Part shown: positions 24,915 to 50,299 of the stretch, in pieces
Layout: the number at the start of each line of letters is the position of its first letter
How positions within the stretch are numbered: the first letter of the stretch is position 1
Assembly (NCBI GenBank): GCA_001931905.2
Contig: MSJI02000906.1
Coordinates: forward strand, 62,001 to 126,000
DNA from: Cladosporium sp. IMV 00045
Lineage: Eukaryota; Ascomycota; Dothideomycetes; Cladosporiales; Cladosporiaceae
Length of the DNA stretch: 64,000 nucleotides
Reading direction: 5' to 3'
The notes under the pieces: generated by a model
What the model saw: only the letters and a program-made list of their open reading frames with translations
The model's database searches: none
Told to the model about the DNA's origin: nothing
Made by a program: the position numbers and the translations under genes

Positions 24915-25124
24915 TTTGAAATAAAAGGCCTCAATATTAGAGAGCCTTGAAGAACAGTGCTGCAATTAAGCAGTCACTGAAGGAAAGTGCTGCGATTAAG
25001 CAGTCACGGGGGTTTTTTTTTAGAGGGACTCGCAAATCGAGATCCCTATGGTGCTGCGTTTTAGCAGACACCAGGAGAGAGAGAGAGGGAGACACCAGCG
25101 AGGGTGTCTCGGAGCGATATAAAA
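24915..25124 (-). promoter_or_regulatory. Helicase leader: six consecutive stem-loops and TATA-like element
   Basis: Reading in the sense direction from 25124, a TATA-like element (CGATATAAAA on the plus strand, 25115-25124) is followed by stem-loops at 25089-25110, 25050-25072, 25024-25047, 24987-25007, 24956-24978 and 24925-24948, ending 10 nt before the ATG. The first is a plain 8-bp hairpin. The other five share one plan: lower stem of 3-5 bp, one unpaired base on the sense 5' side, upper stem of 3-4 bp (CTGC/GCAG, CTCG/CGAG or CTC/GAG), and an AT-rich loop of 5-7 nt. The lower stems differ (GGTG/CACC, AGGGA/TCCCT, GTG/CAC, AGTG/CACT, AAGGC/GCCTT on the plus strand or its complement) yet all pair. 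Very similar elements precede the gene at 45691-49677. Confidence 0.85.
24925..24948 (-). repeat. 24-base leader hairpin, copy 1
   Basis: Plus-strand arms AAGGCCTC and GAGAGCCTT around AATATTA. It is identical over all 24 bases to the copy at 49772-49795. Confidence 0.95.
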
Positions 25125-25382
25125 ATTTTAAACACAGAAAAAAAGAGCGCCGTGTTCAAAATGGTTTTGTTATTGTGAAATCAAAGGAGTCAGCGAGCGC
25201 GAAGCGCAAATCTACTTTTCGACGCGGCTACGCAACAATGCCAAGCACAAACGACGGGAGGGGTTGCGGGAGGGTGCGCGAAAACGGAGGAAGGAGCAAC
25301 CCGCGAATGCGACACTTTCGAGTGAACGAATGATTGGCTCGCTTGTCGGTTGACATCATCGCAAACGGTCAGTGAAACGTTG

Positions 25383-26640
25383 CAGACGGTGAAGATACTA
25401 GCCTATGGTAATATGGAAGATGCCGAGAGACTCGAACGAGATACTGATCATCTCCTTGGTACCAAACACCCGACCCAGTGATGAAGTTGCTGATACCAGC
25501 ATACGGTGATACGACGATTGCTGAGATACCCTGCTGAGATATCGATCATCTCTTTGGTTCCAAGCAATCGATTCAGTGCTGAAGTTGCTAATACCAGCAT
25601 GTAGTAACGCGATGAGTCCTGGGATACCCGGCGGAGATATCGATCATCTCCGTGGCCTGTAACGGTTTTACCAATGCGGAAGCCGATGATATGAGCTTCT
25701 AGAGACCGAGGCGAATCGTGAGAGACTCTTTCCGAATGTTGATGATCTCCTTGGTCCACATGACGAAACTCGCGACGAAAGCCGATGATATGAACATAAT
25801 TCAAACGTGTCCTGGGAAAGTCGATTTCAGCGTTGATCATCTCCTGCGTTCGTGTGAAGCCATTCACTACCAAAGATGATGATACGAGCTTGTGGAAACC
25901 AGATGCAATCCTGAGATACTGGACTTGCAAGTCGATCATCTCCGTGGTCAGAATCCTTCCATGGCGCATCAAAGGGGAGGATGCGAGCCCATAGAAACCA
26001 TGGCGTTCTTGAGAGACTGGACTTCGGGACACATCATCTCCTTGGCTGATATCACTCGATCGGGTGCTCAAGGGGGAGATACGAGCCTACGGAAACCATG
26101 GTGATGCCTGAGAGGCTGACCTTCAGAAGCCATAAATTTCCTTGATTAGGAGCCTTCGAGTGACCCCTGAAATTGATGGAACGAGCCCCTTGGTACCAAG
26201 GAATTTCGTGAGAGCATAGTCTCATGAATTCAGCACCTAGTTGGCGTATGGCGTTCGATTTTTTTCTGAAGTCGACGACACGTGCATGCAAGACGGCAGA
26301 GACCAACCGAGTCAATTCCCGGGAGATGAGAGTCCATTCTCGATCTTCTCGGTGGTTCAAAATGACCATCCTGCTGCCGAAGGTGATTGTATCTGCACGC
26401 AAGGCAACGGGGGTTTACCAAAATGGTCTCAGGGAAGGTTGAACTTGTTTCGCAATCGTATCTCTGGTTTGATGCATCTGTCCAGGTGCTGAAGTCGATG
26501 ATGCACGCATTCCAGACTCCTGGATTTCGTCGAAACGATTTCCGAGAGCTATGATCTCCGCATCGAGCATCTCCGTTTGTGAGTGGCGTTTCATCGGCGG
26601 CGGAAGCCGAGGATAGCTCCAGCGATGGGACAGAGATTTA
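25383..26640. repeat. Diverged tandem array, unit about 98-110 bp, about 12 copies
   Basis: Successive units share a core near GATATCGATCATCTCCKTGG and a second block near GATGATAYGAGC. The core recurs at roughly 25445, 25542, 25640, 25740, 25838, 25936 and 26033, then becomes weaker to about 26640. Units are diverged by substitutions and small indels. An open frame crosses part of the array on the minus strand, but unit length is not a fixed multiple of three, so it is unlikely to be coding. The array lies directly upstream of the helicase leader. Confidence 0.75.
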
Positions 26641-26933
26641 ACTCGATTTAACGTCCATCTCCGGGACTTGCAGCATACAATCAGCCGCTGAGCGCGATGA
26701 TACATACAGTAAAATGGAGGAGATACATTTTTGATGCCGCAAATCACGAGGGTATCTTTTACGATAGGATAACGAAGTGAAGTGAGGTCGAGTGAAGTCT
26801 ATCGGTGGGTGTTACATTCCCCGAACAATCTCCTAGAGATCCCCGCAACAGTCTGTCGCAAATAATAATTCAAGATTTGAAGTTCTGAAGAAGGTCAAAA
26901 CTACAACCAAAGCAACGCCACCAGAAAACTACC
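26641..26933. other. Intergenic region, FCF1 promoter side
   Basis: Just under 300 bp between the end of the tandem array and the FCF1 start codon. Nothing distinctive. Confidence 0.5.
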
Positions 26934-27585
26934 ATGGGTGTCCAGAAGAAAACGCGCAAGTTTGCGACCGTTAAGCGAGTCATCAGTCAGCGCGATGACC
27001 GCCTGAAGAAAAACCAGCCCACCCCTCTGGACCAGCAGAAGAAGAAGAACGGCGGTAAAGATGAGCTCGTGCGAACAATGTAAGTCTTCATAGAGCCTCC
27101 CTCTGCGCATCTGCTTGATCAATACTGACTCTCTCTTCAGCCCACAAGCGCCTAGTGGCATGTTCTTCCAGCACAACACCGCTCTCCAACCGCCCTACCA
27201 GATCCTCGTCGACACGAACTTCCTCTCCCACACCGTCCACCACAAACTGCCCCTCATGTCGACTATGATGGACACTCTATACGCCTCCTGCACACCGATG
27301 ATCACCGACTGCGTCATGGCCGAACTGGAAAAGCTGGGACCCAAATACCGCATTGCACTGCAGATCGCCAGAGACGAGAAGTTTGAGCGCTTGAAGTGCG
27401 ACCACAAGGGCACATACGCCGATGACTGCATTGTGGACCGCGTGGTCAAGCAGAGAGTGTACCTTGTTGCGACGAACGACAGGGACTTGAAGAGGAGAGT
27501 CAGGAAGGTGCCCGGTGTGCCAATCATGAGTGTCGCCAAGGGCAAGTACGTGATCGAGAGGCTGCCCGATGCGCCTGAGAAATAG
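26934..27585 (+). CDS. FCF1: rRNA-processing PIN-domain protein Fcf1
   Basis: Exons 26934-27079 and 27141-27585 (61-bp intron GTAAGT..TTCAG) encode 196 aa, close to the yeast length of 189. Fcf1 is an essential nucleolar component of the small-subunit processome, needed for early pre-rRNA cleavages of 18S. The N-terminal basic stretch MGVQKKTRKFATVKRVISQ leads to a PIN domain with conserved acidic sites in ILVDTNF, DCVMAEL, YADDCIVD and ATNDRDLKRR. The splice joins ELVRTI to PQAPSGMFFQHNTALQPPY, matching the family exactly. An ordinary core gene directly beside the repeat array. Confidence 0.95.
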
Positions 27586-28443
27586 GCGAGTAACTCTGGA
27601 ACGGGCTTGTAAAATTTGGGTGCTTTTTCGGGGTGGTCTGATCATTAGCGAGGCGTACGGCGTTTTTGAGAGGAAATTTGCATGGTTATCTGAGAAGGAG
27701 CTTGACGAGTCTCGAGTCTGAGATTTTGCGAAAATGAAGCAGGAAGAACGACGCAAAATACAAATCATCAAAATGGTGGCTTTACAAACAATGGATGGGC
27801 AACGAAAGCTTTAGGTAGGTAATGTCTACTTCGTCTGAAGTCCACAAGTAGATGGTACTGTATTGGATGGTCTACCATTTCTCTGTACTGCGATACTATT
27901 ACATCCTGTCCATGACTTACGATCTTGAATGTTCTGACTCGCCTTTACTGAACCAAGGACAAAGTCATCAATCTAGACGCCACTACAAATTGTGTCTTTT
28001 AAGAAGCATGCGTGACTTTTGTCAACTATCAACCGGAGTTCGAGCCTCAAGTACTTAGCCTGCCGTAGCAACATGCACATGCCTTGATCTATTGCGAACC
28101 AACAGTCATTGCAAGCATGCGCTCTACAGCCAAGAGAGCTTCTTGTCGAATCTACTACGGCTCGGGAAGCTCGATTGCGTGCTGCTTTCCTGCCTTCAAC
28201 ACGCAAGCTTCAATCGTCGTTCCACGTTCTTCTGATCGAAGGATCAGATGGGGTAGTCTAGAAAACAGTCGTACAATCACATGTTCCAGATTGGTAGGGT
28301 TCACAACGGTTCAACTGCGGAGTCCGCCGGGATAAAATGATCGACCGGAGCTAGCAAGTCACGTGTCTTCACCTGTGAAGCTCTACATGCAGTTCTGCCC
28401 CACGTCCCCCCCTCTTGGACAAATCAAGGTACATATCGTGATT
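27586..28443. other. Intergenic region
   Basis: About 860 bp between two plus-strand genes. No coding or structural feature is supported. Confidence 0.5.
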
Positions 28444-29744: not shown

Positions 29745-31685
29745 ATGAACAGCGCGATCTCATATTCAGAGACTTTTTGTTATCAGCATCTTGAACAGCA
29801 AAACAGACACCCACCAGACGGCGACCCAATGGTGCAGTGCCCAATTTGCGACCGACCCGTCAAAGAGACCAATATCAACCTCCACCTCGACTCAGAGTGC
29901 AAGTCATTCATCGACGAACCCTCGCCGCCGCCGACGACACAACAACCGAGCAGATCAAAAACCGCCGCTTTCTTCTCAACACCCGCCGCCAAAAAATCTG
30001 CCAATCTCAAAGAGCCGCATGCAGGCTCTTCACCACTGCCAAATGGCTTCAGCAGTACCCAGCAGACGCCCTCGGTGAAGCAATCGCTTCCTCCATCTTT
30101 CTCGACCCAACCAGTAAACGGGACCAAGCGACCTGCCTCAGACGAAGATGTCCGACCTGATCGCAAGACAGACAAGAGCACATCCGGCCCTGCGCCAAAG
30201 AAAGCGAAAAACAGCCATGCACCTCTGGCAGAGCGCATGCGACCACGTACCCTGGACGAGGTAGCTGGTCAAGAGCTCGTGGGACCGAACGGTGTGTTGC
30301 GAGGATTGATCGTGACGGATAGAGTTCCTTCGATGGTTCTTTGGGGTGGGCCTGGCACGGGAAAGACTACGATTGCTCGTTTGATTGCGCAGACTGCTGG
30401 GTGTCGGTTTGTGGAGATCAATAGCACGTCAAGCGGGGTTGGGGAGTGTAAGAGATTGTTCGACGAGGCGAAGAATGAGCTGAGGTTGACTGGAAGGAAA
30501 ACGATCATCTTTTGCGATGAGATACATCGGTTTAGCAAGAGTCAGCAGGATGTCTTTCTTGCGCCGGTTGAGGCGGGACAGGTCACATTGATTGGAGCTA
30601 CGACTGAGAACCCAAGCTTCAAAGTCGTGAGCGCTCTTCTCAGTCGATGCAGGACGTTCACATTGGCGAAACTGGAGGACAAGGACATCTTCGAGATCCT
30701 CAAACGAGCCTTGTTCAACGAAGTCCCAGACCTCGCACCATCATCATCGAGCAGCCAACCATCCTCCGCCTCATCCTCCCAACCCACAACCAACAGCCAC
30801 CACCTCCTCACCGAATCCTCCTACTCCCTCCTACACTATCTCTCCAGCTTCTCCTCCGGCGACGCGCGCACCGCCCTAAACCTCCTCGAACTCGCCCTCG
30901 ACCTCACCACCAACCCAACCACAACCACCGCAAGCATCAAGTCCTCCCTCACCCAAACCCTCGTCTACGACCGCGCCGGCGACCAACACTACGATACGAT
31001 CTCCGCCTTCCACAAATCCGTCCGCGGCTCCAACCCGGACGCTACCCTCTACTACCTCGCCCGCATGCTTCAGTCAGGCGAAGACCCGCTCTACATTGCG
31101 CGGCGGATGGTCGTCATCGCGTCGGAAGACGTCGGGCTGGCTGACAATAACATGCTCTCCCTCGCTACGGCCACTTACGCCGCGGCGGAGAAGATCGGCA
31201 TGCCGGAGTGTCGAATCAATCTGGGTCATTGCGCTGTTGCGCTGGCTCTCGCGCCGAAATCTGTGCGTGCTTACAGAGGGCTGAACGCGGCGTATAGTGC
31301 GCTGAAAGAGCCGGGGGTGGCGGGTCTGCCTGTTCCGGTGCATTTGCGCAATGCGCCGACGAAGTTGATGAAGGAGCTGGGGTATGGTGGGGAGTATAAG
31401 TATAACCCTGACTATAAGGAGGGGAGGGTCAAGCAGGTTTATTTGCCAGAGGGGTTGGGTGAGAGGAGATTTCTTGGCGAAAGCGATTTGGGGGAGAAGG
31501 TTGATCCAGATGTTGGGGAAGAAGATCATGCTTTACCTGAGGCGGGTGGAGGACGAAGCAGAAGTGTGGCGTCTGGTAATGATCGAGAGAGCAGAGCGGC
31601 CACGCCGGGAGACAGTGAGCAAGAAGATGGTGAAGGGGAAGACGAAGATGGCTCAGGATTATTCCTCAACCCAGATGGCGATTGA
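29745..31685 (+). CDS. MGS1: DNA-dependent ATPase MGS1/WRNIP1 (RarA family)
   Basis: Single exon. A start at ATG 29745 gives 646 aa; ATG 29829, immediately before the zinc finger, is also plausible. A UBZ4-type ubiquitin-binding finger (VQCPICDRPVKETNINLHLDS then EC) leads, followed by a low-complexity linker, the AAA core with Walker A GGPGTGKTT (about 200-208) and Walker B IFCDEIHRF (about 255), sensor GATTENPSF, and the C-terminal RarA/MgsA domain (KSVRGSNPDATLYYLARML, VIASEDVGLADNNML). The family acts in the nucleus at stalled replication forks with PCNA and polymerase delta. The acidic C-terminal 80 residues are unconserved. Confidence 0.93.
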   Translation: MNSAISYSETFCYQHLEQQNRHPPDGDPMVQCPICDRPVKETNINLHLDSECKSFIDEPSPPPTTQQPSRSKTAAFFSTPAAKKSANLKEPHAGSSPLPNGFSSTQQTPSVKQSLPPSFSTQPVNGTKRPASDEDVRPDRKTDKSTSGPAPKKAKNSHAPLAERMRPRTLDEVAGQELVGPNGVLRGLIVTDRVPSMVLWGGPGTGKTTIARLIAQTAGCRFVEINSTSSGVGECKRLFDEAKNELRLTGRKTIIFCDEIHRFSKSQQDVFLAPVEAGQVTLIGATTENPSFKVVSALLSRCRTFTLAKLEDKDIFEILKRALFNEVPDLAPSSSSSQPSSASSSQPTTNSHHLLTESSYSLLHYLSSFSSGDARTALNLLELALDLTTNPTTTTASIKSSLTQTLVYDRAGDQHYDTISAFHKSVRGSNPDATLYYLARMLQSGEDPLYIARRMVVIASEDVGLADNNMLSLATATYAAAEKIGMPECRINLGHCAVALALAPKSVRAYRGLNAAYSALKEPGVAGLPVPVHLRNAPTKLMKELGYGGEYKYNPDYKEGRVKQVYLPEGLGERRFLGESDLGEKVDPDVGEEDHALPEAGGGRSRSVASGNDRESRAATPGDSEQEDGEGEDEDGSGLFLNPDGD

Positions 31686-33117
31686 GCAGAGGCTTTCATT
31701 TGGATGAGTACAAAACCGAATTTTACGATTTGGATGAACCGTTCACATTGGAAAGCATCTGAACACAACTCAACAAGGCCCGAAGTTGCAGACACGGCTC
31801 AAGCGACTCCCATCCTGCCGCCAGTGCATCACCTCGCGTAGAGGCCGCATGCAAACCATCACACCCGCCAGACAAAACCATCAAGCCATCGCTCGGCGCG
31901 AGTGTAAAGCACGACAGCACTCGGGAGTTTGGCATGCAATACTCGTTGCATGCCCAAACCTCCGGTAAAGAAAGTAGCAGCGAACCGGCCTGGTATACTG
32001 GACTCTGCCACATACAGAGTTGTGTTATGTTATCTTGGATACAGAGCGCAGCGTATCATCAGGATGCAAAACCAGGGACACAAAATGCAGGATTGGGATA
32101 CAAGGATAAGGTAGTCAGGGCAGTGTGGGCATGGGTTCTGCGGTGGCATTATGCCTGCTTTGACTGCCGAAAAGTTTGGTTTTCCGGGTATGCATACGGG
32201 TACACATGTGTTTATTGGTATATGTACCTTACAGACATATCAAGAAGCGTGCATTCACTTCACTCAACATGAGCAACATGTGAGAGAACGCACCCAGCTG
32301 ATCCTCAAATCGAGTGAAGTACGCATGCCTTGCAACCGCTCCAGGAACGTCTCCTGTGACACATTCACTCTAAGCACGCAAGTCGAACCGAATCGAAAAT
32401 GAGAAACCACTTTCAAGCATTTCATCAAATGTCAAGAATTAATAATTCATTTCTCGAATCAAAGCTCAGCTAATAGTTACAGTCACACTTGCGCCCTGCC
32501 ATCTTACAAAGTAAAGAGCGAGCAACGGAGTCTTCCCTTTTCCGTAAAGAGCGAGAGTCAAGAGCGGCGAGAAAGCAAGAAAAGAAGAATCAAGCGCATT
32601 ATTAGAACCAATGGTATGCAAACACAACAACCCCTCTTTTTTGTCCTTCACCATCGGTTCCTCCAAAACACCAGCTCTGTCACCTCCATAAAAGCAGAAA
32701 AGTCCATCATCAAAGAAAACCAAAGCATCAACATTAGCTACTAAAGTTACGTTTGAGTCGCCTGCTGCGTGCAGGTAGGTAAGGTCGTGGTACACATTAT
32801 CCTCGTCGTGAATGCGTAGCGCGGTCGTGAAAAGGATCGTTGAAGTGCCATTTCCGGAAACACCTGTGCTGTGCGTCGTGTAGTTGCGAATGCTTGTGCT
32901 GTGCGAAGAGACGTGGATAAACAGGTGCTATGCTTTTCTTGTGCACAAAAAAAGCAGACAAGCGGTGCGAGAAGAAACAGAAAGTAAAGCATATCGCCAG
33001 CGATACAGTCATTAAGCGTTGGTGCCGCGTTGCGTTGCGGTCATTGTGAGGTCGTGGAGGCGTGAAGTCGTGCGAAAGTCATGTGAGTGTTGGCAGGCCA
33101 GGCGATGTTAACCGTGT
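31686..33117. other. Intergenic region between convergent genes
   Basis: About 1.4 kb. Short frames on both strands lack domains or convincing splice sites. No repeat or RNA gene recognised. Confidence 0.5.
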
Positions 33118-35030
33118 CTAGTGATCACTCAGAGGTGCCGAGACAGTACCCTCATCATCATCACCAGGCAGGCCAGTAGTGCCCTCGAAGAAAAGCGGGT
33201 TTGCCCCGTTCGTGTCATTGGCATTGCCAAAGTTGATGTCAAGCGTGCCGAAAGCGGCGTCATTATTGAGCCCGAAGACATCCCAGTTGTGCATTTGAAG
33301 AGTGCTGTCATTGGTGAAAGATTGAGTGACGGGTGGGATATGCGTTCCAGTCGAGTACTGCTGCTGCATATTTAGAAAGCCGCCTGCACCCAGCAAGGAG
33401 TTGTTCGAGTCTTGAGTCACGGGAAAGAGAGGCTGATTGGTGAAGGCACCGAAAGCAGACAAGTCTCTGGCAGCATTGGACTGATTATCCGCAGCTCTGA
33501 ATCCAGCAGAGGAAGGCCTTTGCTGGGGACGATATGGCTGCGGCAGCGGTGCATAGTAGCCACCATTGCCGAGCTGATTGATGGCGCGACCATACCCAGA
33601 CTGCGTGTTCTTGCTCTCCGTGTGAGTGCTCGGGAATGGCTCAGGAAAGCTGGCAGTCAAGTAGTTCATGCTCGCAGGACGGTCGAAGGTAATGTCCGGT
33701 CCAGTGTTATCCCGGTGAATGCTGAGCCCAGACCGGCGTTGTGCTGGGCGGTGTCGGCCATAAGTGAGGCCATCATCCTCGTCGAAGTCATCGCTACCGT
33801 CAATGTAGTGTGAGCGAGCTTTGCCGAAGGATGGATGGTGTGCACCATTACGGCGGTTGCTGCGAAGGTTGCGGCCACCATTGGGATCTCTCTCAGCGAG
33901 AACAGTCTTGGGGCGGCGACGAGTTGTGGCTCTCTTTTTGACAGGAGGCTCGTCCGGCTCGGGTGTGGTCTCGCCTCTCAACGGACTGTCAGCCGAGTTT
34001 GGCTCTCCGGAGATGACACGCTCTTTCTTGAACTCTCCAGCATGGTCGAAGATGAGCTCCGTAGGTGTCACAATCTCACTGGTTGCTTGAAGCTGCACGA
34101 TGACCGAGAATGCTTTCTTCTGGTTGCGCTTGCGACGCATCTCCGGCGTAGCCGAGTCGAAGATATCCATGCCAGGCCAGATGTCACCCTTGAGTCTTGC
34201 CATGTCATTCGGAGGGTCAAGCGGGTCCTGCTCTTCCCCAAAGTAGCCGGACCCATGTAGAGAGCCTGCCATGGAGCCGGGCCACGATGTGTTCTCATCA
34301 CTCATCTTGCGTTTGCGGGGAATGTGAGGTCGCGGATAGCCATAGGTAGAGGTGTCGTCGTCGTCGTCCTCATCGTCATCAGCATCGGATGCGTAGCTGT
34401 TGGAAGTTGCGATGTGAGAAGGAGATGGACCGTACGGCATCGGGTGCCATCCATTGGTGGTGGCCGCGTAGCCTCGAGTGCCGTCAATGATGTCGTAGGA
34501 GGGTAGCAAGCCTGGTGTGGATGGTCTCGAGTTTGGCTCTCTCTTGATCTTGGGCCCAAGCTGTGGGTCAAGCAGGTTGTTGCGAAGACTAGCCTCCCGG
34601 CGAGGGACAGGCATGGAAACGGGAACAGAGCCGCTGCGTGAGGAGGATTGAGGTCTTGGTGCTGCTGTGAAAACAGTCAGTCGGGCAGCTCGGAAATTAC
34701 TCGTAAGGCAAATTGCAAAGTGAACGCACCTCCATTGATTCGTCGGCCACTCCCTGCGGAGCCTCTGTTTCTCCTCTCCTTCTGGCTCATGCGTTCACGC
34801 ATCAAATCATCCAAATTCCACTCCTCATACCACCTATCATAGTCCTCGACATCTCGGTGAGCAACCGGGTCGGTGCTGACCCGGACCTTCAATTTGAAGT
34901 AATTGCTGAGATGCTGCTTGCTCGCTATATGGGTAAGTAGATGGCTGGTATCGCTGAAGAACGGCTTCTTAGGACATATGTTGCAGTGGAGTGGAATGCC
35001 GGTGTTAGCGGCTGCTGGGGTGTGCGTCAT
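33118..35030 (-). CDS. Fungal protein with N-terminal C2H2-like zinc finger
   Basis: Exons 35030-34730 and 34664-33118 (65-bp intron, phase 1) give 615 aa. Near the N-terminus CNICPKKPFFSD followed by HLLTHIASKQH forms a C2H2-like finger of the U1/matrin spacing, often RNA- or DNA-binding. The next 80 residues (FKLKVRVSTDPVAHRDVEDYDRWYEEWNLD) look conserved and helical. The remainder is long, disordered and Pro/Ser/Asn-rich with basic patches (RKRKM, KKRATTRRRPKT) that could be nuclear signals. I do not recognise the family beyond the finger. The splice joins RINGG to AAPRPQSSSRSGS in phase; the ATG at 35030 is the first in frame. Confidence 0.75.
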
Positions 35031-36150
35031 TGTCGATGGTGGTGGTGCCGGGGAGGCGAGTGATGCCGGTCGATGCTGGCGGCGGATGCCCCTGGCTGGC
35101 AGATTGAAGGAGTTTTGCTGGCGAGGGCTGCTGGCGAGGGTCTGACTGCGTGAAAGGAGTGACGGAGGAGGTGATGTTGTGGGCGCTGGAAGCAGCTGGC
35201 TGCAAGAGGTGTACCTGGCTGGGGGTGAGGGAGTGTGAGAAGATGAGCAAGGACAGTGAGTGACCAACGCAAGACAGAAGACAGTGCAGGAGAGTGTGGT
35301 AGCACCCAGGGAGGTGAGAAGTCGAGGTTGCGGAGGGTGATGTCGATTTCAAGGAATGGGCGGACGAGAAGAGCAGAGGCAGCTCGCCGCCTGCCGGACG
35401 ATAGTCGAGACAGAGAGAGAGAGCGGCGGAGAAAGTAAGACGGGAGTAGTCGAAGGAAGGTGTATGAGCTGATGATGTCTGGGAGGCCGAGTGAGGGCAG
35501 TTGCGGGTGGTTGAATGTTTGCGAATTTCGAGTGAGGGTGCTGTGAGGTGAGTTGCTCTTTCCTGGCTGTCTTCATTGCTCTTATTGTGTGGTGCGTTTA
35601 AGCTTTGGTCTTCTCGCGCTAACCACACGGTCACGTGCACAAAGAACGCGTGAATGTCTACAGAATGGTCTTGGAACTCGAAGTCGACGTGATGAACGTT
35701 GATCGTGATTTCATCTTATTAAGGAGGGTAGTCAATGGCGAGTATTGATGGTTGTTTTGGGATTCGGTCCTAGGTAAAGGCTTCTCACACGATCACCGCC
35801 AAGAACATTGTAAGTGAACGTCGCCGGCGACAGAGGACAGCCATGCACCACCAGCTGCCTCCACGCGAACGTCAGCTGAAGATAGGATATTATAACAAAA
35901 GAGATGTGGTGGATCCCAGTACCCCAACGCTCTTCAATCGCAGCGCTGAGAATATTGCTGGAATAATACCCAACTGGAATTTTCTTTCCTCTCGTACTGT
36001 AGCCCGGCTTCATTGAAGTGCTCAGCTCGGGTTATTAGATTACGAGAGATTTGTACAGAAGTAAGGCTCTGGCGTGCGAGGCACGTGGGTCGTATGTTGC
36101 GCAGGGACGATTGGGAGGCTTCATTTATTTTCATTTAATGCGGACATGTC
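35031..36150. other. Intergenic region
   Basis: About 1.1 kb upstream of the zinc-finger gene and downstream of the prenyltransferase gene. CT-rich on the minus strand; no gene supported. Confidence 0.5.
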
Positions 36151-37326
36151 TCATCGGCCGGCGACTTTGCTGGTGATGTGCTTGGGCATGCAGCTAGAAG
36201 ACGTCAGATAAGCATGTTCGAGGCATCAAGAGTCAAGACTTACTATGCAGGATCCACTTCAATCAAGTCAGGATGGCCAAGCAAGCTCAATCCCGCGATG
36301 CCAAAGCACAGGTGAAAGACATCCACCATATCGCCCGGCCGGTCAGAGATGCCGCCCTCTTCAGGGTCCTGGCATGCCAAAATGAACTTCGTCAACTTCG
36401 CAGAATCGATCCAATGCAGTCGGTCAATCATGGCCATGCTACTGATCACCCACCAGCTGTAGCAGACATCGACGAGCTTCTCCGGTCGACCGTTCAAACC
36501 TCCACTGGCTTGCTGGCGCTCGCTCAACCACGCTCCAAGTCTGTCCTTACCTTCCTCACCCAGAAACGAGTCAAGCTGGCCAGTGATTGTGAGAGCTGCC
36601 GTACACACAAAGACTTGGCCCGAGTGAGACTCTGCTCCTGGTGATGTACCAAATCCACCGTCAAAGTTCTGACAAGCGCGGATGTGCGAAATAGCAGCAT
36701 CGACATCGATGAGAGGAGTTTCACCCGGCCGCTGATGAGGCATATAGCCAAGCAGGGACAGCGAGTTGAATGCACCGTAGAGGAAGCGGGTGTCCGTCTC
36801 GCCCCATTCATCGCCTGCGAACGTGCCATTTGACTGCTGCAAACCGGCGATGAATGTGGCGATCTTCCTCTTGCCATCAGGTATCCTCTTCTCAAGCTCC
36901 GCGAAGTCGTCCGTCATGGCGAGAATCTGCACGGCAGAAATGGTATACAACATGTGAGCATCATGCCCAGGCGCTGCTCCAAAGCCTCCATTCTCGCACA
37001 AACAGCTGAGTGCATAATCAAGCACGCCCTCTGCAGGAAGCGCATCGGGATGTTGCATGAAGTGAAGCGCGACAAGACCCCAGTAAACTCCGCTAACCCT
37101 CAAGTGTTCGGTGAGGTGGTACTCGAGCTCATCGCGACGCTAGTAACAGCGTCAGCGTAAGTCCGAGCCCGGTTTCGATCCAGTTGATGGAAGGAAAAAA
37201 GGAACAAAAGCATACGGTGTCCAGCTTCTGCACGTAGGCAACGTGCTTGTCGACGACGAGCTTGAGGTCGTCCGGTAGCTGGCCGCCCGCGACGCGTCCT
37301 CTGCCAGGCCCGGCAGCGAGAGACAT
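36151..37326 (-). CDS. BET2: Rab geranylgeranyltransferase (type II) beta subunit
   Basis: Three exons, 37326-37216, 37139-36244 and 36193-36151, give 349 aa. The enzyme attaches geranylgeranyl groups to Rab GTPases together with the alpha subunit and Rab escort protein. The prenyltransferase alpha-alpha barrel repeats are visible (CENGGFGAAPGHDAHMLYT, NFDGGFGTSPGAESHSGQ, QEASGGLNGRPEKL-type blocks). Zinc ligands match the family: Asp and Cys in LVDVCYSWWV and His in DVFHLCFG. The last exon is only 43 bp. It replaces the in-frame TAG created by the donor site with YCMPKHITSKVAGR, which matches the conserved Bet2 C-terminus. The first exon starts at MSLAAGPGRGRVAG. Confidence 0.93.
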
Positions 37327-38840
37327 GACGGTGAATTGTGGTACGCCACTGGCTCCGTGGGGGATCGTGCGCAAATTGCGGCTTTCAGGCTGAGGCGGTG
37401 CAGGGACGGACAGGAGAGAGGGAACTACGCGTTTCGTGGGATTGGATAGGTTAAAAGGGGATGGAATGGGGGAGTTTGACGTGCAAGAGTAGTGAGGGAG
37501 CGCGGCTCTGAGACACAGACGAGCAAAAAGTGGAGTGCGGCACAGGACGGTGATTATGATGTCGAAAAAAGGGACCTGCGAGACTTGTCGGTACCTGATT
37601 GGGTTCGCGTTAGTGAAGTTGGCTGGCGGGTAGAGCCGAGCGCGTGCAACAAGGGGAGTTCGTCTCGGTTTTAGCGGCATGACTTGCAGATGGGAAAGGA
37701 ACGAGGGAAGTGAAGTATGTGCGCGGCGTGCGTGCGTGCGTATGTTTGTGCGCGCTGGCGAGGATGATGAGAGTGCGATAAGCGCGCGGAGAGAGACGGT
37801 CTGTGTGGATCACGACTCTGGCATTGGCAGAGACAACGATGGACGAAGCATGTTGGATGTTGTATATAGGTGCAAGTAAGATAGGCTCTCTGCCTAAACG
37901 CCTACACTAGTCTCTCCTTAAAACGGTCAAAGGGATACAACGTGTTGAATGTATGAATACTCGCGCAGCCACAGTTGATGGAGTTGTAGTTGTTTCCTCC
38001 TCCCCTCCTCTCTCGGTTGAATCACTGTTATTGTTATTTCCTATCCCACTCAGCCAGTGTCGTACAATATTCCTAAACCGTCTTCATCGGAACGACGACT
38101 GCCTCATTAGGACGGCCAGCTGAGACGCCTCATCGAACGGGCCGCGTGGATTGTACGACTCCCATTCACTTCTCATCTCTTTTCGGCGACTTCCACAATC
38201 GCCTTGCCTCTGCTAGACGTATTGCGTCTGATCTTTTCTTTCTTCCATACCAGCAACATCCCGACAACACACGACTTGACACGATTTGACGCCCACCGCT
38301 AGACGCAGCTGCGCAGGACGAAGCGCCTAATATCTTAACATCGCCGGATATTGCAGGCAAGAAGAGCGCCATTCGCGCATACCCCATGAGCACGTCCGCA
38401 TAGCTGCATCTTGTTGCTTTTGTTTGGAGTGCAGATTGCAGCAACAATAGCAGAAAGGTACGTCCCTGTCGTGTTGTCGTTGTCGTTGTTGCGGTGTTCT
38501 TTGTCCTCACACCGCCAGCTAGCCGGCGGTATTGTTACGCAGCCGCCAACCAATGCGGCCAGCCAGCAAGCCAGCCAGTGGGAGGACTTGACAACACACT
38601 CCACCTCCACCCTCCCCTCGCTTGTCAATATCAACCACCACCACCACCGCCAATCTGCTGCATCCTGACTGACAGCGGCTGCCCGCATGTAGCAGCACGA
38701 TAGTCGTCGACATATCGCGCGTCCCATGAGTGCTTGACGCACGCACGCGCCCTCCCTCGCTCTCTGCCTCCAACGCCCCGTTGGCGCTAGGAGCTCGCTA
38801 TCCCAAGGGTCGCTGGCTGTACCCACACCGGCGTGGACCC
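37327..38840. other. Divergent intergenic promoter region
   Basis: About 1.5 kb between divergent genes. The part next to the RhoGAP gene contains short upstream ATGs (for example ATGAGTGCTTGA near 38726) that could act as uORFs. No other feature. Confidence 0.5.
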
Positions 38841-41386
38841 ATGCACCACATCGCTTCCCGCACCGCCGATCTCCGAACCATAATGCCACGACACGGCAAC
38901 CCCAAGGAACTGACCATCAACCTCACGGCCGTAGACGACAGGCATGCCCCTCCCGACCGTCCCATTAGCAGCCCGATAGCCCTCGAGGGCATAGACTTGT
39001 CGACCATTGACGGAGGAGTCGGCCTCACATCACTGCCGCCACTCCCTGCCTCGCCGCCGGACTCATCCCCTTCGTCGCGAAAAACGAGCGCCCCGAAAGG
39101 CATCCTCAACACCCTCAAGAGCCGGTCACGAGAGGTCTCCAGGGAGAGATCCAGAGAAAGGAGTTCGCAAGACCAGCAACGAGACACAAAGAAGCAGCCG
39201 CGCCAGATGCAGGAGCAGGAAGGTCGGCTGCCTGAGAGCAGCAGCATGTCCAAGATTTACCACCTGCGAAAGGCGCCGGGTAGTACGCCGGAGCTTAGCT
39301 TGGTGAGCAGTGCGGATGGCGCTGCCAAAGGACAGAATGAAGGTATGCACAAGATTTCATTCACATGTGAGAAGTTGAACACCGGTGAAGCACGTGTTTC
39401 ATTCCCAAGGCAGAAGTGCAGCTAGCAGATTGCGCAATGGCGAGCTTGTGACAATGGCAATATCTACTCGTCACTTGGACGCTCACTCTGCTCTTCGCTT
39501 CAACACCACAGTTCGCTTCAACATTGCAACATACCATTGTTCAGTGCTGAAAAACTGTGGCCTGTTCGCAAGCAACAGCCTCTTTGCCATTATTGAAATC
39601 TGCATTCACCAAAAGAGCAACCTCACTAACAATTTCAACAGACGCAAGTCAGGCAGAGTCAAGGCCACAGCCTACACGCCAACCGAGCGAAGACAGCACG
39701 ACCCGGAAAAAGGAGAAGCCTTTTCGCAACCCTCTCACAAGATCCCGCTCAATACGAAGCGACTCACAATCGAAACAACGAAAACCGAGCGGTCTCTACC
39801 CACCGCCTCCCGGTGAACAACCACCAAACTCCGCACCCCTCACAGGCAACTGGTCAAACGCAGACATGAACATGTTCGGCTCCAAAAGCAAGAACAAGGA
39901 TTCTCGTGGCAAGTCTGCCGATCGCGCAGTCTTTGACGACAGCGACGAGAACGCCCCTCCTCACCACCGCAACATGGCCATGCAGGGCCCGAAAGAGAAG
40001 CCAAATGCCTTCGTTTCTGGCAGCAAGAACGTGCTTGGCAAGGCCAAGACGGGTGGTGGCATGTTTCTCACGCGCCTAGGCAAGATGGCGCGCAGCAGCA
40101 GTCACAGCGAGAAGGAGGTTCCGGACGCTGAGTACGTGCTCAAGGTCATCACTCTGCCGCTAGTTGAGCAGACCCGAGTTACCAGGATTTCAAAGAGGAT
40201 TGAAGCCTCGAAGGATAAGACCGAATACTGGATGCCGAGTTTGCCATGGCGTTGCATCGACTACCTCAACCTCAACTGCGAGTCTGAAGGCTTGTACCGC
40301 GTGCCGGGAAGTGGCCCGCAGGTCAAGCACTGGCAGCGCCGCTTCGACCAGGAACTGGATGTTGACCTCCTTTCCGAGCAAGAGCTCTACGACCCAAACA
40401 CCATCGGCAGCATGCTTAAGACCTGGCTGCGCGAACTCCCCAGCGAGATCTTCCCGCAAGAGCTCCAACACTCTCTCGCCGTCGAACTTCAGAAGGACAA
40501 CCCGAACTTCAACATGATGGGTCAGCCGGCCCCGCAGAAGCTTCGCGATGCACTCTCAGAACTTCCGCCATTCAACTACTACCTCCTCTTCGCTATCACG
40601 TGCCATCTCAGCCTGCTTCTTTCACACCAGGAGCGCAACCGCATGGATTTGAACAACCTCTCCATCTGCATTGGACCGTGCCTCAACCTGGAGCGCTGGC
40701 TCTTCAACTACCTTGTCGGAGACTGGCGCAACTGCTGGCAGGGATGCTGGACCGAAAAGCAGCAGCTCGACGAGGAGAAGCGTCTCGAAGACCCCGCCTA
40801 CATGCCACCGCCCTCTAGCAGCGGCAGCACCACCCTCCGCTCTCCGTCAACTCGTGGCATTGGAGAAGCCATGAACAGCCTCGATCTTGAGGAGCGCGCT
40901 GTCAGCAGTGGCGGCGAATCGGGCGGCTCCAGTGGACGTCAGACCAGCCCGAACAATGGCCAGCCTCGTCGTAGCAACGACTCCCGTATCAACCACACCC
41001 AGCAGCAGTCCCGCAACACAGGCTCCTCTCGACCCACTCGTCCCAGCGCCGAGAACATCCGCGACGCCACCCTCGGCCGTGCGAGCAGCGGCAACCGCCA
41101 CCGCGAGCCAAGCTATGTCCCCGCCAGCATGCGCGATCCCCAGGTGCAACCGCAGCCTTTCAACAGCGTCAACTACGCTACCGGCCATCGCCCGGCGCAT
41201 ATCTACACGCAGCAGCAGGATCAGCGTCGTCCGACCACTTCAGACACCCGTGGCTCCGCCGGATCTCCTCGTGAAGGCTCCGTTCCCGCTGCTTCGACCA
41301 CTCGTCCTTACCGCACTCATCGCCGCAGCCAGAGTGATCTCCCCCTCTCACCATCGCACACCAGCTTCCCGGAACACCCTCGCTGA
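38841..41386 (+). CDS. RhoGAP-domain protein
   Basis: Exons 38841-39342 and 39642-41386 give 748 aa; a start at ATG 38883 is also possible. The RhoGAP domain spans roughly residues 350-545: IPWRC-like entry (MPSLPWRCIDYLNLN), arginine finger Arg387 in EGLYRVPGSG, LLKTWLRELP-type helix (MLKTWLRELPSEIF), and NNLSICIGPCLN. It should stimulate GTP hydrolysis on a Rho-family GTPase and so act in polarity or cell-wall control. Both flanks are long, disordered and Ser/Arg/Pro-rich. The 299-bp intron is the longest in the window; GTATGC..TTCAACAG is in phase and joins QNEG to the ASQAESRPQ stretch, but an extra small exon inside it cannot be excluded. Confidence 0.85.
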
Positions 41387-45591: not shown

Positions 45592-45690
45592 TCACGAGTC
45601 CAAGGCTTGTCGGCGGTATGAATCAACGTGTCTTTGAAAGGCATCGTGGTGTTTAGATTTCCCGCCACGCCATTCACAGACATAGCGCTC
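45592..45690 (-). pseudogene. Remnant of a ninth zinc finger beyond the stop codon
   Basis: After the TAA the same frame reads ERYVCEWRGGKSKHHDAFQ, RHVDSYRRQALDS and then TGA at 45594-45592. The linker HS-stop-ER lines up with HSEER/HSDER of the other fingers, and Cys, Phe-like spacing and His are partly kept. This looks like former coding sequence, or sequence reached only by read-through. Confidence 0.6.
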
Positions 45691-48600
45691 TTAAGAATGA
45701 CGTTTCTTGTGCCTTCGAAGGTCTCGAACCGTCTTGAAATCTTTCTCACATACTTCACAGATATGTGGCCGTTCATCTGAGTGACGACGTGTCTTGTGAT
45801 CTTGAAGGTCTCGAACCGTCCTGAAACCTTTCTCACATACTTCACAGACATGTGGCCGTTCTTCTGAGTGAGTGTACAAGTGTCCCCGAAGATCACCAGC
45901 TGACTTGAAGCCTTTCTCACACACTTCACAGACATGTGGCCGCTCTTCAGAATGAAATTTCGCGTGCATTCGAAGCTCTTCCGCTAACCTGAAAGCTTTC
46001 TCACATATTTCACAGATATGTGGTCGTTCCTCTGAGTGAATTTTCGAGTGTCTCCGAAGATCACTAGCTGTCTTGAAGCCTTTCTCACATACTTCACAGA
46101 TATGTGTCGGCTCAGCATGATACTGCGCGTGCCTCGAAAGTTCCCCAGCGCTCTTAAATCCTTTGTCACATACCGAGCAGATATGTGGTCGTTCCTCTGA
46201 GTGAATTTTCGAGTGCGCCCGAAGGTCTCTAGCTGACTTGAAGCCTTTCTGACATATCTCACAGACGTGTGGCCGATCTTCAGAATGTAGGCGCTCGTGA
46301 TTTTGAAGACGAGAATCACTCCTGCATTTTTTGCCGCAGGTCCTACAAATGTACTGGGGACGTCCGTTCTCACCTAGCGCCACGGCGTTGGTGAGTCGAG
46401 CCGCCATGCCTGCGAAGCTCGAGTCGATCACATGGCGTGTAATTTCTGCGCTAAGATGGCAGTGTTCTTCGCATACGACGGCGGTGTCAAATGAAGATCC
46501 ACGCGACCATGTCATTGTCGGCACATGATTCTCGTGTGCCACCAGGCCGCAAACCTCACACCGTTTCTGTTTGTTGGATAAAGGGAAACTTTTGCGGTAA
46601 GTTCCCGTCAACTGGCATGCGACTTGGTGCTGAGGTCGCAGATCCAGGTGCAGCTTTTCGAACTGCGGCTGGAGCGAGTAGTCTTCTTTAAAGCATTGCA
46701 CCAGAGTTGTCGCGGTGAGATACCGTGATTCCGTGGAATCATCGCTGTGCGCATCCTCGAGGTCTCCATTCCTACTCTCGATCAAATACAAATCAGCCAG
46801 TCGACCAATGCTGACAGTGGTCCAAGCAGCTCCGGTGTCCGAATCAACAAAAAAGTATTCCCGATTCCAAGACCGCTTTTGTTGACAAACGACAGTCACG
46901 CAAAGGTCCAACGCCTTGTATCTGTCCCGCAGAATGGACCAAGTGGCATTGTTGGAGGTGGCTCCATCCACGCCAGATGTAAGAATGACCACCTGCGGCC
47001 GAGTCGTCAAAGTCCTGGCCCAGTCATTCGCATCGTCCAGCAGTTTCCTGACGCGCTTTCCGGCATCTCCAGCCTGACCAGGGAAATTGGCATCCAACAA
47101 GACGGCTGTGCTGCTGTCGCAAAAGCAGTAGTCCATCCAGTAGCCGCTTGAACCATAGATGTCCTCGACATCTACATCAGACCAATCTGCGATCTCTTGT
47201 GGCATGGATGTGCGGTTGCCGAACGCGTTGTGGAATGCAAAAACCTGGCTTTCGGCCCTGTCATACATCCCATCAAAGGCCTCCTCAAGGCCCTGGTCAC
47301 CACTTGACCTGACAACTGAAACGACCAAAAGGACATCCTTGGCAATGCAGTCGATCAGCTGTGGTGGATTGCTTGGTGGCGAAAGGAAGGCGCGGATTGC
47401 CTCGGTTGATACGAGCCTGCCAGGACCATTGTTGACTCTGTACCAAGGGCCAGCACTTCCGTGAGGGTCTTCAACGTCGTCCAGATCCTCGTCTTGTAGG
47501 ACGGTGTATCTCTTGAAGATGGCTGGCGTCCGCTCCAAGACAGCAAGAGTTCTCTCGAATATGACCGATTCTTGCTCGTCAACGGAGAGACTGGCCTCTT
47601 CAGCGAGATTTTTCACTCTATCCAAGACCAACTCCTGAACTCTGTCCTGAGTGAGAATGGGCAGATGATTCTGACCCACAAGAACGTCGCACGCGATTTG
47701 CCTCAGGTTGAACCTCCAATCATCGCCCAATTCCTTGAAATGGGGCTCAGTGTCAGAACCTTCAGAGTCACTCTCCGAATCTGCGATCGGAACGCGAGAG
47801 ATTTTAGGCAACCTGTATGTCATGCCCTTCTTGGGCTTGCCGCCGGATTTGCCTTTCCTGCCTTTGTTGGCGGACTTGTTGTTTTTGGCCTTGTTGCCGG
47901 ACTGGCTACTCTTGGATCTGCTGCCTGGAGGATTGCCTTTCTTTGAATTACTGCCAGACTTGCCCTTGCCGGACTCCTCATTGTCAGAGTGATGTCCATT
48001 GTTTGCCGCAGAGTTGGAGTCACCAAGGGCTTCCGCAACCTCGACCGGACCGGGGCTCGTCAGTTGCTTCAACAAGACGTGTTGGTAGATGTCTCTCATG
48101 ACATCCCAGCGTAGGGCCTGACCGTACAAGGTGGGAGCCACTTTGTCCAGCACGCCACCAGTCAGGCTTTGCGACAATGCCACCTGCTTTGCCAAAAATA
48201 CAGACCAGAAGCCGCAATCGGTGGTGTTTGTCTGTTGTGGACACTCCATGACCTCAGGGATAGGCCCAGAGAAGTTGACATCAGCCCAGCCGAGATCAGG
48301 TCGTTTCTTGATTAAGCTGAGTAGCTGTGGTAGCTCTTTAGCAAGGATACTCAGTGTATGTCCGCGCTGCCGGTTTGACATGGTGTTGTACAGACGAACA
48401 TGACCGTTCTCCTTGGCATCATCGATCTCAATCTCCACCGAGACCCAGTGGACTTGCGAGATGTTGTAAACCAGCAATAGCCGCTTGGTGTTAGGGGGCA
48501 TGAGGCCAGCTGGATACAATGAAGGATCGAATGGATCGTCTGCACTATCGATTGCCCGGTGCTTGTCCTCACAATTGCATCGGAAAAGGCTGTCCTGGAT

Positions 48601-49677
48601 ACTTTCTCCGGGCAATTGCTTCACAGAGTCTGTATTCATGTATTCGAAGTCGCTCCTGCAAACGAATACACTCAATGATCCAATAGGTGCAATGTACGCA
48701 TCATGCTGGAGGACCTCTTGATTTGCGAGGGCAATCTTGACATCCAGAATATTGTCGGGCGCCCATGCTTCCAGATCCCAATCATGCGGGGCGACTGACA
48801 GCATGTCTTTGATCCTGAAACTGATCTCAACGATGGGACTGGAATCTGACGTTGCATCGAGCACCTTCGGTGGTTGGGATTCGGCCAAGGAAGTGGCAAT
48901 GGCCTTGTTCTGGAAGTGGCGCATGCACTCGCGCAGAGGCTCGGCAAACGCATTGTTGTCGTTGGTTTGCAAAGTCTCCATGAGCTGTTGGAGTTCGTCG
49001 TCCTGCTCCTTCGACTTCCTCTGCGCTTGGTTCATCGGCGATTGAACCCCAGCAAGCTTTTGCTGTTCTGCCCTTTCCTTGGCCTCAGAAAGGATTTGAT
49101 CACGGAGCACTTGGACCTGTTCCTGGTGTTCGTCTAGGACCTCTCCACTTCCGTTGGAACCTTTAGGCGGAGGATAATCCTCGTCATCGTCCATTTGGAG
49201 CTGGAAATCGTCCTCTACTTGAGAGAAGCCATCCGCACCGGGCAAACCTTGATTTCCTTGCTGCTGCGAGGCGCGCGGTGATCTCTCTCTGGGCGAATGT
49301 GTTGCGCCAGCAGTGCCACCGTTCACTGTCTCATCCAGACCGTCGGTGTGAGTTGGCGTTTCATCACCATTGCGAACTGGTAAAGAAATACGCTTGCTGG
49401 AAGTCCCATTAGCAGAGTCCGAGCCAGGTGAGAAGGGTCGCTTGGAAGCCGATCCATCAGCGCGTGGCACTCGACCATGCTCTTGGAGATATTGTCTCTC
49501 CCGCTCATCCTGTGGGCTGCGTGTTCCGTTCAGCAATGCAGCGTTCTCGTTGTCGAATTGGTGTCGCTGCTGCCAGCCAGCCTCAGGCCCGTTCTTTGGA
49601 GCCCTGGCGTTGGGGCCCTGTAGCTGCTGACGAGCCCATTTCGGCGGTCGTGCTGATCTCTTGTTGTTCTTACCCAT
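45691..49677 (-). CDS. Ulp1/C48-like protease domain fused to eight C2H2 zinc fingers
   Basis: Single-exon gene of 1,328 aa starting MGKNNKRSARPPK. Residues 1-250 are disordered. About 285-520 form a Ulp1-like cysteine peptidase: His410 in QVHWVSVEIEID, Gln481/482 and Cys488 in PQQTNTTDCGFWSVF. The position expected to be Asp is Asn431 (VRLYNTMS), so activity is uncertain. A Lys/Ser/Gly-rich linker follows (about 560-640), then 450 residues of unknown fold. From about residue 1107 eight near-identical fingers run head to tail (pattern HICEVCEKGFK..DLRRHSKIHSEERP). Their similarity indicates recent tandem expansion. The stop TAA falls in the linker after finger 8. Such a fusion is unlike cellular SUMO proteases; C48 domains do occur in proteins of several eukaryotic transposons. 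Confidence 0.8.
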   Translation of the reverse strand: MGKNNKRSARPPKWARQQLQGPNARAPKNGPEAGWQQRHQFDNENAALLNGTRSPQDERERQYLQEHGRVPRADGSASKRPFSPGSDSANGTSSKRISLPVRNGDETPTHTDGLDETVNGGTAGATHSPRERSPRASQQQGNQGLPGADGFSQVEDDFQLQMDDDEDYPPPKGSNGSGEVLDEHQEQVQVLRDQILSEAKERAEQQKLAGVQSPMNQAQRKSKEQDDELQQLMETLQTNDNNAFAEPLRECMRHFQNKAIATSLAESQPPKVLDATSDSSPIVEISFRIKDMLSVAPHDWDLEAWAPDNILDVKIALANQEVLQHDAYIAPIGSLSVFVCRSDFEYMNTDSVKQLPGESIQDSLFRCNCEDKHRAIDSADDPFDPSLYPAGLMPPNTKRLLLVYNISQVHWVSVEIEIDDAKENGHVRLYNTMSNRQRGHTLSILAKELPQLLSLIKKRPDLGWADVNFSGPIPEVMECPQQTNTTDCGFWSVFLAKQVALSQSLTGGVLDKVAPTLYGQALRWDVMRDIYQHVLLKQLTSPGPVEVAEALGDSNSAANNGHHSDNEESGKGKSGSNSKKGNPPGSRSKSSQSGNKAKNNKSANKGRKGKSGGKPKKGMTYRLPKISRVPIADSESDSEGSDTEPHFKELGDDWRFNLRQIACDVLVGQNHLPILTQDRVQELVLDRVKNLAEEASLSVDEQESVIFERTLAVLERTPAIFKRYTVLQDEDLDDVEDPHGSAGPWYRVNNGPGRLVSTEAIRAFLSPPSNPPQLIDCIAKDVLLVVSVVRSSGDQGLEEAFDGMYDRAESQVFAFHNAFGNRTSMPQEIADWSDVDVEDIYGSSGYWMDYCFCDSSTAVLLDANFPGQAGDAGKRVRKLLDDANDWARTLTTRPQVVILTSGVDGATSNNATWSILRDRYKALDLCVTVVCQQKRSWNREYFFVDSDTGAAWTTVSIGRLADLYLIESRNGDLEDAHSDDSTESRYLTATTLVQCFKEDYSLQPQFEKLHLDLRPQHQVACQLTGTYRKSFPLSNKQKRCEVCGLVAHENHVPTMTWSRGSSFDTAVVCEEHCHLSAEITRHVIDSSFAGMAARLTNAVALGENGRPQYICRTCGKKCRSDSRLQNHERLHSEDRPHVCEICQKGFKSARDLRAHSKIHSEERPHICSVCDKGFKSAGELSRHAQYHAEPTHICEVCEKGFKTASDLRRHSKIHSEERPHICEICEKAFRLAEELRMHAKFHSEERPHVCEVCEKGFKSAGDLRGHLYTHSEERPHVCEVCEKGFRTVRDLQDHKTRRHSDERPHICEVCEKDFKTVRDLRRHKKRHS

Positions 49678-49771
49678 GATGATAGATGCACGCTCAGTTA
49701 AGAGGTACAAATGGGGATGGGGTGGGGGGTGCAATCGCAATGAAGCGTTGCAGAAGGGAGTTTTGTTTTAG

Positions 49772-49795
49772 AAGGCCTCAATATTAGAGAGCCTT
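49772..49795 (-). repeat. 24-base leader hairpin, copy 2
   Basis: Identical to the 24 bases at 24925-24948 in the helicase leader, about 24.8 kb away in the same orientation. Confidence 0.95.
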
Positions 49796-49905
49796 AAACG
49801 TTCCTGCAATTAAGCAGTAAACAGGGATGCCCAAAAGGCCTGCAATTAAGCAGAACCGATTGGGGTTTGCACTCGCAATGAAGCGGTGCAGGAGGAGTGG
49901 TTTGA

Positions 49906-49929
49906 AAGGCCTCAAAATTAGAGAGCCTT
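49906..49929 (-). repeat. 24-base leader hairpin, copy 3
   Basis: Differs from the other two copies by one base, in the loop (AAAATTA for AATATTA); the stems AAGGCCTC and GAGAGCCTT are unchanged. Confidence 0.95.
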
Positions 49930-50299
49930 GCGCATGTGTGCTGCAATGAAGCAGACACACGAGGAAAGAGGGACACAACGATATAAAACGATGAATCGAG
50001 ATGGAAAAAGGCTTTATAATTGCCGATGTGGAAGAAAAACAGATAAATTCTTCTTGAGAGATGGCGATAAGTCCCACGAGGTGAAGTCGAAGTTGCAGCG
50101 TGCCTTCCATTCGTTCGACAACTCAATCTCAACCTCATGTCTTCAAGCTTCGCCAACACACACCTTGCTCAATCGTCCTCTCTTCACACTGTGCTCTGGT
50201 GTGGCTGCTGGTATAATTCCGGCGCCTTTCGAAGCATGCGCTCGTCAGATCTCGTCCTATTCAAGCGTCAGCCAACCGAACAAGCCATCTCCCGCCGTC

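Follow-up and report, generated by a model that had tools for sequence, protein, structure and literature searches.

The locus and its hairpins

The 64-kb window analysed here, a part of contig C902 in the genome of Cladosporium sp. IMV 00045, carries two large genes on its minus strand, one for a helicase (gene 1) and one for a protein with a protease domain and zinc fingers (gene 2), and in front of each lies a row of short hairpins, which are the subject of this study. The genome that was searched amounts to 49.87 Mb in 954 contigs, and holds paired loci with long matches between them at roughly 83-92% identity. A preliminary description of the same DNA had counted 13 hairpins, six and seven; all of them were found on the minus strand, and with another one at 49687-49709 the sense strand has 14, of which six precede the ATG of the helicase and eight that of the protease/zinc-finger gene. 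The features are listed below by position, with hairpins read on the sense (minus) strand, the bulged base in square brackets and the loop in parentheses.

20688-24914, minus strand: gene 1, superfamily 1 (SF1) helicase of 1409 aa, AAA_11/AAA_12, with a UPF1-like helicase core and an RG-rich C-terminal part (Pfam)
24925-24948, minus strand: hairpin 1.6, AAGGC [T] CTC (TAATATT) GAG GCCTT (hairpin scan; fold)
24955-24979, minus strand: hairpin 1.5, CAGTG [A] CTGC (TTAATT) GCAG CACTG (hairpin scan)
24987-25007, minus strand: hairpin 1.4, GTG [A] CTGC (TTAATC) GCAG CAC (hairpin scan)
25024-25047, minus strand: hairpin 1.3, AGGGA [T] CTCG (ATTTG) CGAG TCCCT (hairpin scan)
25049-25073, minus strand: hairpin 1.2, TGGTG [T] CTGC (TAAAAC) GCAG CACCA (hairpin scan)
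25089-25110, minus strand: hairpin 1.1, perfect 8-bp stem GAGACACC (CTCGCT) GGTGTCTC, without bulge (fold)
25115-25124, minus strand: TATA-like TTTTATATCG, common to leader 2, a possible promoter element (read directly)
45694-49677, minus strand: gene 2, 1328 aa, with a Ulp1-like (C48) protease domain and, after it, eight canonical C2H2 zinc fingers (Pfam; finger count)
49687-49709, minus strand: hairpin 2.8, TGTAC CTC (TTAACT) GAG [C] GTGCA, 9 nt before the ATG, absent from the first list
49730-49752, minus strand: hairpin 2.7, TGCAA CGC (TTCATT) GCG [A] TTGCA (hairpin scan)
49772-49795, minus strand: hairpin 2.6, AAGGC [T] CTC (TAATATT) GAG GCCTT (hairpin scan)
49800-49822, minus strand: hairpin 2.5, GTTT [A] CTGC (TTAATT) GCAG GAAC, one U-G pair (hairpin scan)
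49837-49857, minus strand: hairpin 2.4, GGT [T] CTGC (TTAATT) GCAG GCC, one U-G pair (hairpin scan)
49868-49890, minus strand: hairpin 2.3, TGCAC CGC (TTCATT) GCG [A] GTGCA (hairpin scan)
49906-49929, minus strand: hairpin 2.2, AAGGC [T] CTC (TAATTTT) GAG GCCTT (hairpin scan)
49936-49960, minus strand: hairpin 2.1, GTGTG [T] CTGC (TTCATT) GCAG CACAC (hairpin scan; fold)
49979-49988, minus strand: TATA-like TTTTATATCG, 18 nt 5' of hairpin 2.1, a possible promoter element (read directly)

A single-base bulge is present in 13 of the 14 hairpins, on the 5' side in ten and on the 3' side in three, and the earlier statement that twelve of 13 follow one plan agrees with this, the exception being the perfect hairpin at 25089-25110. 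Hairpin 2.1 has an alternative register, in which a 3' bulged C scores slightly above the 5' bulged T. Both arrays are located between the TATA-like motif and the ATG, and the distance from the motif to hairpin 1.1 is 4 nt. Leader 2 has a single ATG before the start of gene 2. It belongs to a short upstream frame of five codons, MRKAL (49918-49935, minus strand), which starts right after hairpin 2.1 and has its stop codon in the first three loop bases of hairpin 2.2.

Enrichment and predicted folding

Leader 1 has five bulged hairpins, where 200 dinucleotide shuffles gave 0.32 on average and never more than 2; leader 2 has eight, with a shuffle average of 0.50 and at most 3. Since the hairpin search yields paired stems by construction, a second test was anchored on the upper stem and loop only. 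A lower stem of at least 3 bp across a one-base bulge was then found at 13 of 13 anchors in the leaders, as compared with 11 of the 132 anchors in the rest of the window (Fisher p = 2e-12). The two leaders are also the only places in the 64-kb window with at least four hairpins per 250 nt. The preliminary description had held that the lower stems are almost all different and that each has its complement. The pairing stands for all 13 anchored lower stems, but three of them make use of a G-U pair, and there is no covariation between the AAGGC hairpins at 24925 and 49772, which have the same sequence.

The minimum-energy fold of leader 1 is exactly a string of six hairpins; that of leader 2 contains seven of its eight, and the start-proximal one appears in the centroid fold. 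On the sense strand the fold z scores are -8.3 for leader 1, -8.8 for leader 2 and -8.2 for a related array on contig C637 (see below), and on the antisense strand -5.9, -2.1 and -4.1. The unpaired bases of the sense folds are poor in G, with fractions of 0.03 in leader 1 and 0.013 in leader 2; in 391 random segments of the window the median is 0.163, the first percentile 0.03 and the lowest value 0.017. ATGs before the start number none in leader 1, one in leader 2, one in the related array of contig C548 and none in that of C637 on the sense strand, against 1, 9, 7 and 7 on the antisense strand, in repeats that are not independent of each other.

Covariation

The hairpins with a CTGC-type upper stem were compared as a set of eight, six in the window and two on contig C473, with other types outside the count and at least four C473 units omitted, which by eye differ in bulge, stem or loop. 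In this set five of nine pairs have changed on both sides and 90.3% of the cells pair; the covariation score is 0.341, as against 0.087 when shuffled, and was reached by none of 500 shuffles. When the partner was slid by 1-3 columns, the score fell to 0.158 or less. The units of C548 and C637 have other letters, GTGC-CGTCC-ATTA-GGACG-N-GCAC with the variants CGCCC/GGGCG and CACCC/GGGTG, and here the comparison used six distinct units of eight, without an identical copy and a C548 unit whose loop has 10 bases. Two of nine pairs are doubly changed, one of 54 cells is broken, and the score was reached by three of 500 shuffles. Covariation within a family, as first proposed, is supported by both sets, among paralogues of one genome. 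The start-proximal hairpin keeps its loop and upper stem and differs in its lower stem at three sites, two of them homeologs; the counterpart of hairpin 2.8 in C548 and C637 is AAGCAC CTC (TTAACT) GAG [T] GTGCTT. As paralogues of a single genome, the hairpins show a conserved structure with covariation, of the kind expected of a structured cis-regulatory RNA in a 5' untranslated region (UTR).

Other copies in the genome

Further copies were found in the genome, namely an array at C178/C473 that looks decayed and leader-like arrays at C548 and C637, each beside a helicase copy or fragment. The pattern searches detect near-identical sequence only, and the same shape written in other letters is invisible to them; it was helicase fragments that led to the arrays of C548 and C637, and arrays built on other stems may therefore have escaped notice. 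The exact pattern CTGCTTMATTGCAG occurs at nine sites. The two leaders account for four of them; the end of C178 has two and the start of C473 three, but these two contig ends have 1334 identical bases in common and therefore represent three distinct sites. When two mismatches were allowed in a looser pattern, there were nine matches, eight at the leaders, C178 and C473 (with the same double counting) and one on C918, which equals the control count of one and is treated as chance. The C548-type unit pattern gave seven matches, all at C548 and C637, and none in the control. The start-proximal pattern CTCTTAACTGAGNGTG matched without mismatch at gene 2, C548 and C637, with two control matches at up to one mismatch. 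A further pattern was badly designed and gave 14 matches, 13 of them outside the known loci, with 5 in the reversed control. A dispersed repeat is unsupported, as the pattern and DNA searches, within their reach of near-identical sequence, gave no other credible copy.

At the homeologous loci C548 and C637 the array stands before an ATG whose start context is by eye that of gene 2, ATCATGGG. After it, on the opposite strand, comes a helicase fragment with 40-42% identity across some 170-190 residues. C548 has three units of one type and C637 five; of the stricter scans for clusters, both recovered C637 and the looser one C548. Direct repeats about 79% identical (L051 3212-3387 and 4919-5104) flank the array and the helicase fragment, and have four matches in the genome, all at that locus and its homeolog.

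C178 and C473 together correspond to the window locus, but differ from it by an inversion. Read outside positions 31001-39000, C178 has the window's 14.5-19.2 kb in direct and 36.0-26.8 kb in inverted orientation, then a helicase copy 62% identical, which has two stop codons and is without the first 137 residues; C473 resumes at window position 52.7 kb. Relative to C178/C473, the window's helicase and gene 2 lie at or near the two ends of the inversion (19.2-52.7 kb). The C473 array has seven hairpins, as against a shuffle mean of 1.9 and a maximum of 5. A whole-genome protein search found no copy of gene 2 for the inverted locus.

Comparison with known RNA elements

The loops of 13 bulged hairpins are TTAATT, TTAATC, TTCATT, TAATATT, TAATTTT, TAAAAC, ATTTG and TTAACT. 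In the coat-protein operator of RNA phages (MS2 type) the loop has the four bases ANYA, and an A bulges from the 5' arm two pairs beneath it. This operator is similar in being a short bulged hairpin that lies near a start codon and has a small loop of A and U; AUUA is also a loop of C548 and C637 units. It differs in that it is one site instead of an array. The present hairpins depart from its layout: the upper stems are 3-5 bp, the window loops are of 5-7 nt, and the ATTA loops of C548 and C637 go with a bulge on the 3' side and a 5-bp upper stem.

The preliminary description had also been reminded of iron-responsive elements. These are UTR hairpins of 25-30 nt (ferritin 5' UTR, TfR1 3' UTR) in which two stems are split by an unpaired base, the TfR1 mRNA has five of them, and several mRNAs are coordinated by one protein system (PMC4112806). 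The likeness holds for the lower and upper stem around an unpaired base and for the repetition within one leader, but identity with iron-responsive elements is rejected. The apical loop CAGUGH is absent from the leader hairpins, the sole CAGTGA in the leaders being located in a lower stem, and the bulge is not of the unpaired C or UGC/C type but T or A in 12 of 13, on either side, and C in one, with a second C in the alternative register of hairpin 2.1. A scan of the window against Rfam 15, with E values up to 1, matched no family. A fungal precedent for repression is the SDC motif, a 5' UTR hairpin upstream of S-adenosylmethionine (SAM) decarboxylase that represses a reporter via its stem, with pairs disrupted and restored (PMC5640933). 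It resembles the present hairpins in being a fungal hairpin before a gene; unlike them it is a single hairpin of typically 11 bp before another gene, with upstream open reading frames and alternative splicing nearby. Titles and the starts of abstracts, among the matches listed, included no fungal tandem-hairpin leader, RNA-level self-regulation or helicase/protease-zinc-finger pair, which is a weak test of absence in print.

The two genes and their surroundings

The closest solved relatives of gene 1 are UPF1/NAM7 (E 2e-18). In the protease region of gene 2, H410, Q482 and C488, which we take to be the catalytic residues, are invariant in 5 aligned sequences, and the window copy is the single full-length gene 2 in the whole-genome protein search. 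The two had been described as unrelated large genes, which is true of their protein sequences, but as genes they look like partners. P0003, a homologue of the helicase (46%), and P0006, a homologue of gene 2 (38%), come from one source, and for both the longest contig listed measures 14,668 bases; as the two lengths are identical, we infer that both lie on one contig. Together with the arrays that adjoin helicase fragments at C548 and C637, this suggests a two-gene module, in which helicase and gene 2 are probably associated. Among the candidates scored, only three are close helicase proteins, two of them apparently from the species of the window or a strain thereof. Structure predictions were poor (mean pLDDT 38.9 for a part of gene 2 and 36.8 for the helicase relative P0002), probably because there are few relatives. 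Viral contigs scanned with alignments of both proteins gave no viral relatives.

Other repeats surround the module. Diverged tandem repeats of 98-99 nt, in seven or eight copies, lie upstream of both helicase copies (window 25421-26575, L016 1-740), and might be DNA-binding sites for the zinc-finger protein. Upstream of gene 2, at 50328-51898, there are diverged repeats with a CCAGCGCGAGTAGCGAAGGC core and spacings of 33 nt and about 150 nt. Just 3' of the helicase, at 20358-20455, three tandem 35-nt units stand next to a perfect hairpin; two of the units have outer arms that can pair and yet differ in their letters (CGGGG/CCCCG and CTGGAG/CTCCAG), and the fold z is -3.2 and -3.5 on the two strands. 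A gene for a NACHT NLR-like NTPase (57759-60269) is found near the module in the window, and by eye an apparent NB-ARC-like frame near it in C178 (L067 5919-6563); these NLR-like genes sit in a region that differs between the subgenomes.

Discussion

We propose that each array is an RNA element, specific to one strand, in the 5' leader of a gene of a two-gene module; the two elements would be transcribed with both genes and control them jointly, a reading that we believe about as much as we doubt it. What is kept in the hairpins is the shape, a lower stem, a single bulge, an upper stem and an AU-rich loop, more than the letters of the stems, which fits repeated sites of one protein that reads hairpins. 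This, the strand bias, the open linkers and the placement before both starts point to RNA sites for a hairpin-binding protein. Each leader would fold in the cell as a string of short hairpins with G-poor single-stranded linkers between, and the repetition could serve avidity, if the protein binds several hairpins at once. Most likely the bound protein would slow the scanning ribosome, so that both mRNAs would be held down and released together. Control of translation seems the most economical role. The module may encode its own regulator, which would give feedback; the helicase, the zinc-finger protein and a protein of the host are all possible.

Several observations weigh against this. The shuffles leave in place the kinship of the paralogous units, so that the covariation, though strong, is not a phylogenetic test, and for C548 and C637 the number of doubly changed pairs was reached by 38 of 500 shuffles and the number of pair types by 482 of 500. 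The antisense folds of leader 1 and C637, too, are better than every one of 200 shuffles, and the wobbles (8 G-U and 4 A-C in the unfiltered set) favour the sense strand mildly only. The energy per base is ordinary, -0.35 and -0.315 in the leaders as against a median of -0.286 and a first percentile of -0.424 in random segments of the window, so that it is the arrangement and not the overall stability that stands out. The G-poor linkers come in part from a low overall G (0.17-0.18), and in eight other upstream regions the unpaired-G fraction ranges from 0.038 to 0.235, the lowest being nearly that of the leaders. Transcription usually starts further downstream of a TATA box, and if the motifs are real TATA boxes, the spacings of 4 and 18 nt imply that one or more of the 5' hairpins may fall outside the mRNA; hairpin 1.1 in particular might not be transcribed.

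The other loci are not all in line with the proposal either. There is no array of bulged hairpins before the helicase copy of C178, and P0002, an uninterrupted protein of 1125 aa, has by eye the same shorter form as this copy. The C473 array sits 3' of the C178 helicase copy, contains ten ATGs, has a fold z of -4.1 (20 shuffles), weaker than the leaders, and appears in neither of the stricter scans. A BLASTP comparison of gene 2 with the frame that follows the array in C637 was not significant (E 0.08), and it is therefore the start-proximal hairpin and the start context that would make this frame a relic of gene 2.

The inverted repeats could instead act as DNA, as sites for a DNA-binding protein such as the eight-finger protein of gene 2 or as a promoter that forms cruciforms, with the folding of RNA incidental. 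A part of each array may indeed be promoter, given how close to the common TATA-like motif the arrays begin, and gene 2 has its eight canonical C2H2 fingers and both genes their other diverged tandem repeats further upstream. A protein that reads sequence would however not need the pairing that is kept while the letters of the lower stems vary widely, and the sense fold scores above the antisense and the linkers are poor in G, which makes this explanation rather unlikely. Unlikely to a similar degree is a non-adaptive origin, where template switching and local duplication have let palindromic units without a regulatory role multiply in promoters that belong to a decaying mobile or fast-evolving module. 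Tandem duplication of units is plain in a 30-nt repeat at 24948-25007, the leaders share similar stretches of 63 and 79 bases, C548 and C637 repeat their units of one type, decayed and orphan arrays are present, and template switching alone can create paired changes. Correction of quasi-palindromes should on the other hand erase bulges, and yet the single unpaired base is kept in nearly all hairpins of the window, and the pattern searches place the units at the loci of the module and not dispersed.

If the hairpins do act as RNA, they could still serve stability or processing rather than as operators of translation, by blocking 5'-3' decay or by being cut by an endonuclease such as RNase III. 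The fold resembles beads on a string, and a G-poor single strand would leave few unpaired sites for G-specific nucleases, but with 7-9 bp in total the stems are shorter than the usual substrates of RNase III or Dicer, and we hold this to be very improbable. A bolder form of the proposed control by RNA, which we think quite improbable, is that a selfish or conflict-driven fungal module of two genes marks its own mRNAs with RNA operators, repeated and defined by their shape, that are read by its own UPF1-like helicase or zinc-finger protein. The operators would then diversify quickly, with new stems and loops in the same geometry, along with a changing zinc-finger array, giving each copy a private RNA code.

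Were the hairpins without function, they would be a clean case of palindromic repeats that imitate covariation. The arrays also point to the pair of a helicase gene and a protease/zinc-finger gene, of which the literature matches listed, as titles and abstract starts, gave no description. Stems that change while the geometry is kept make recognition by structure only directly testable. If our proposal is true, two partner nuclear genes whose leaders carry tandem arrays of hairpins of conserved shape would offer an unusual example of coordinated control at the level of RNA in a fungus.

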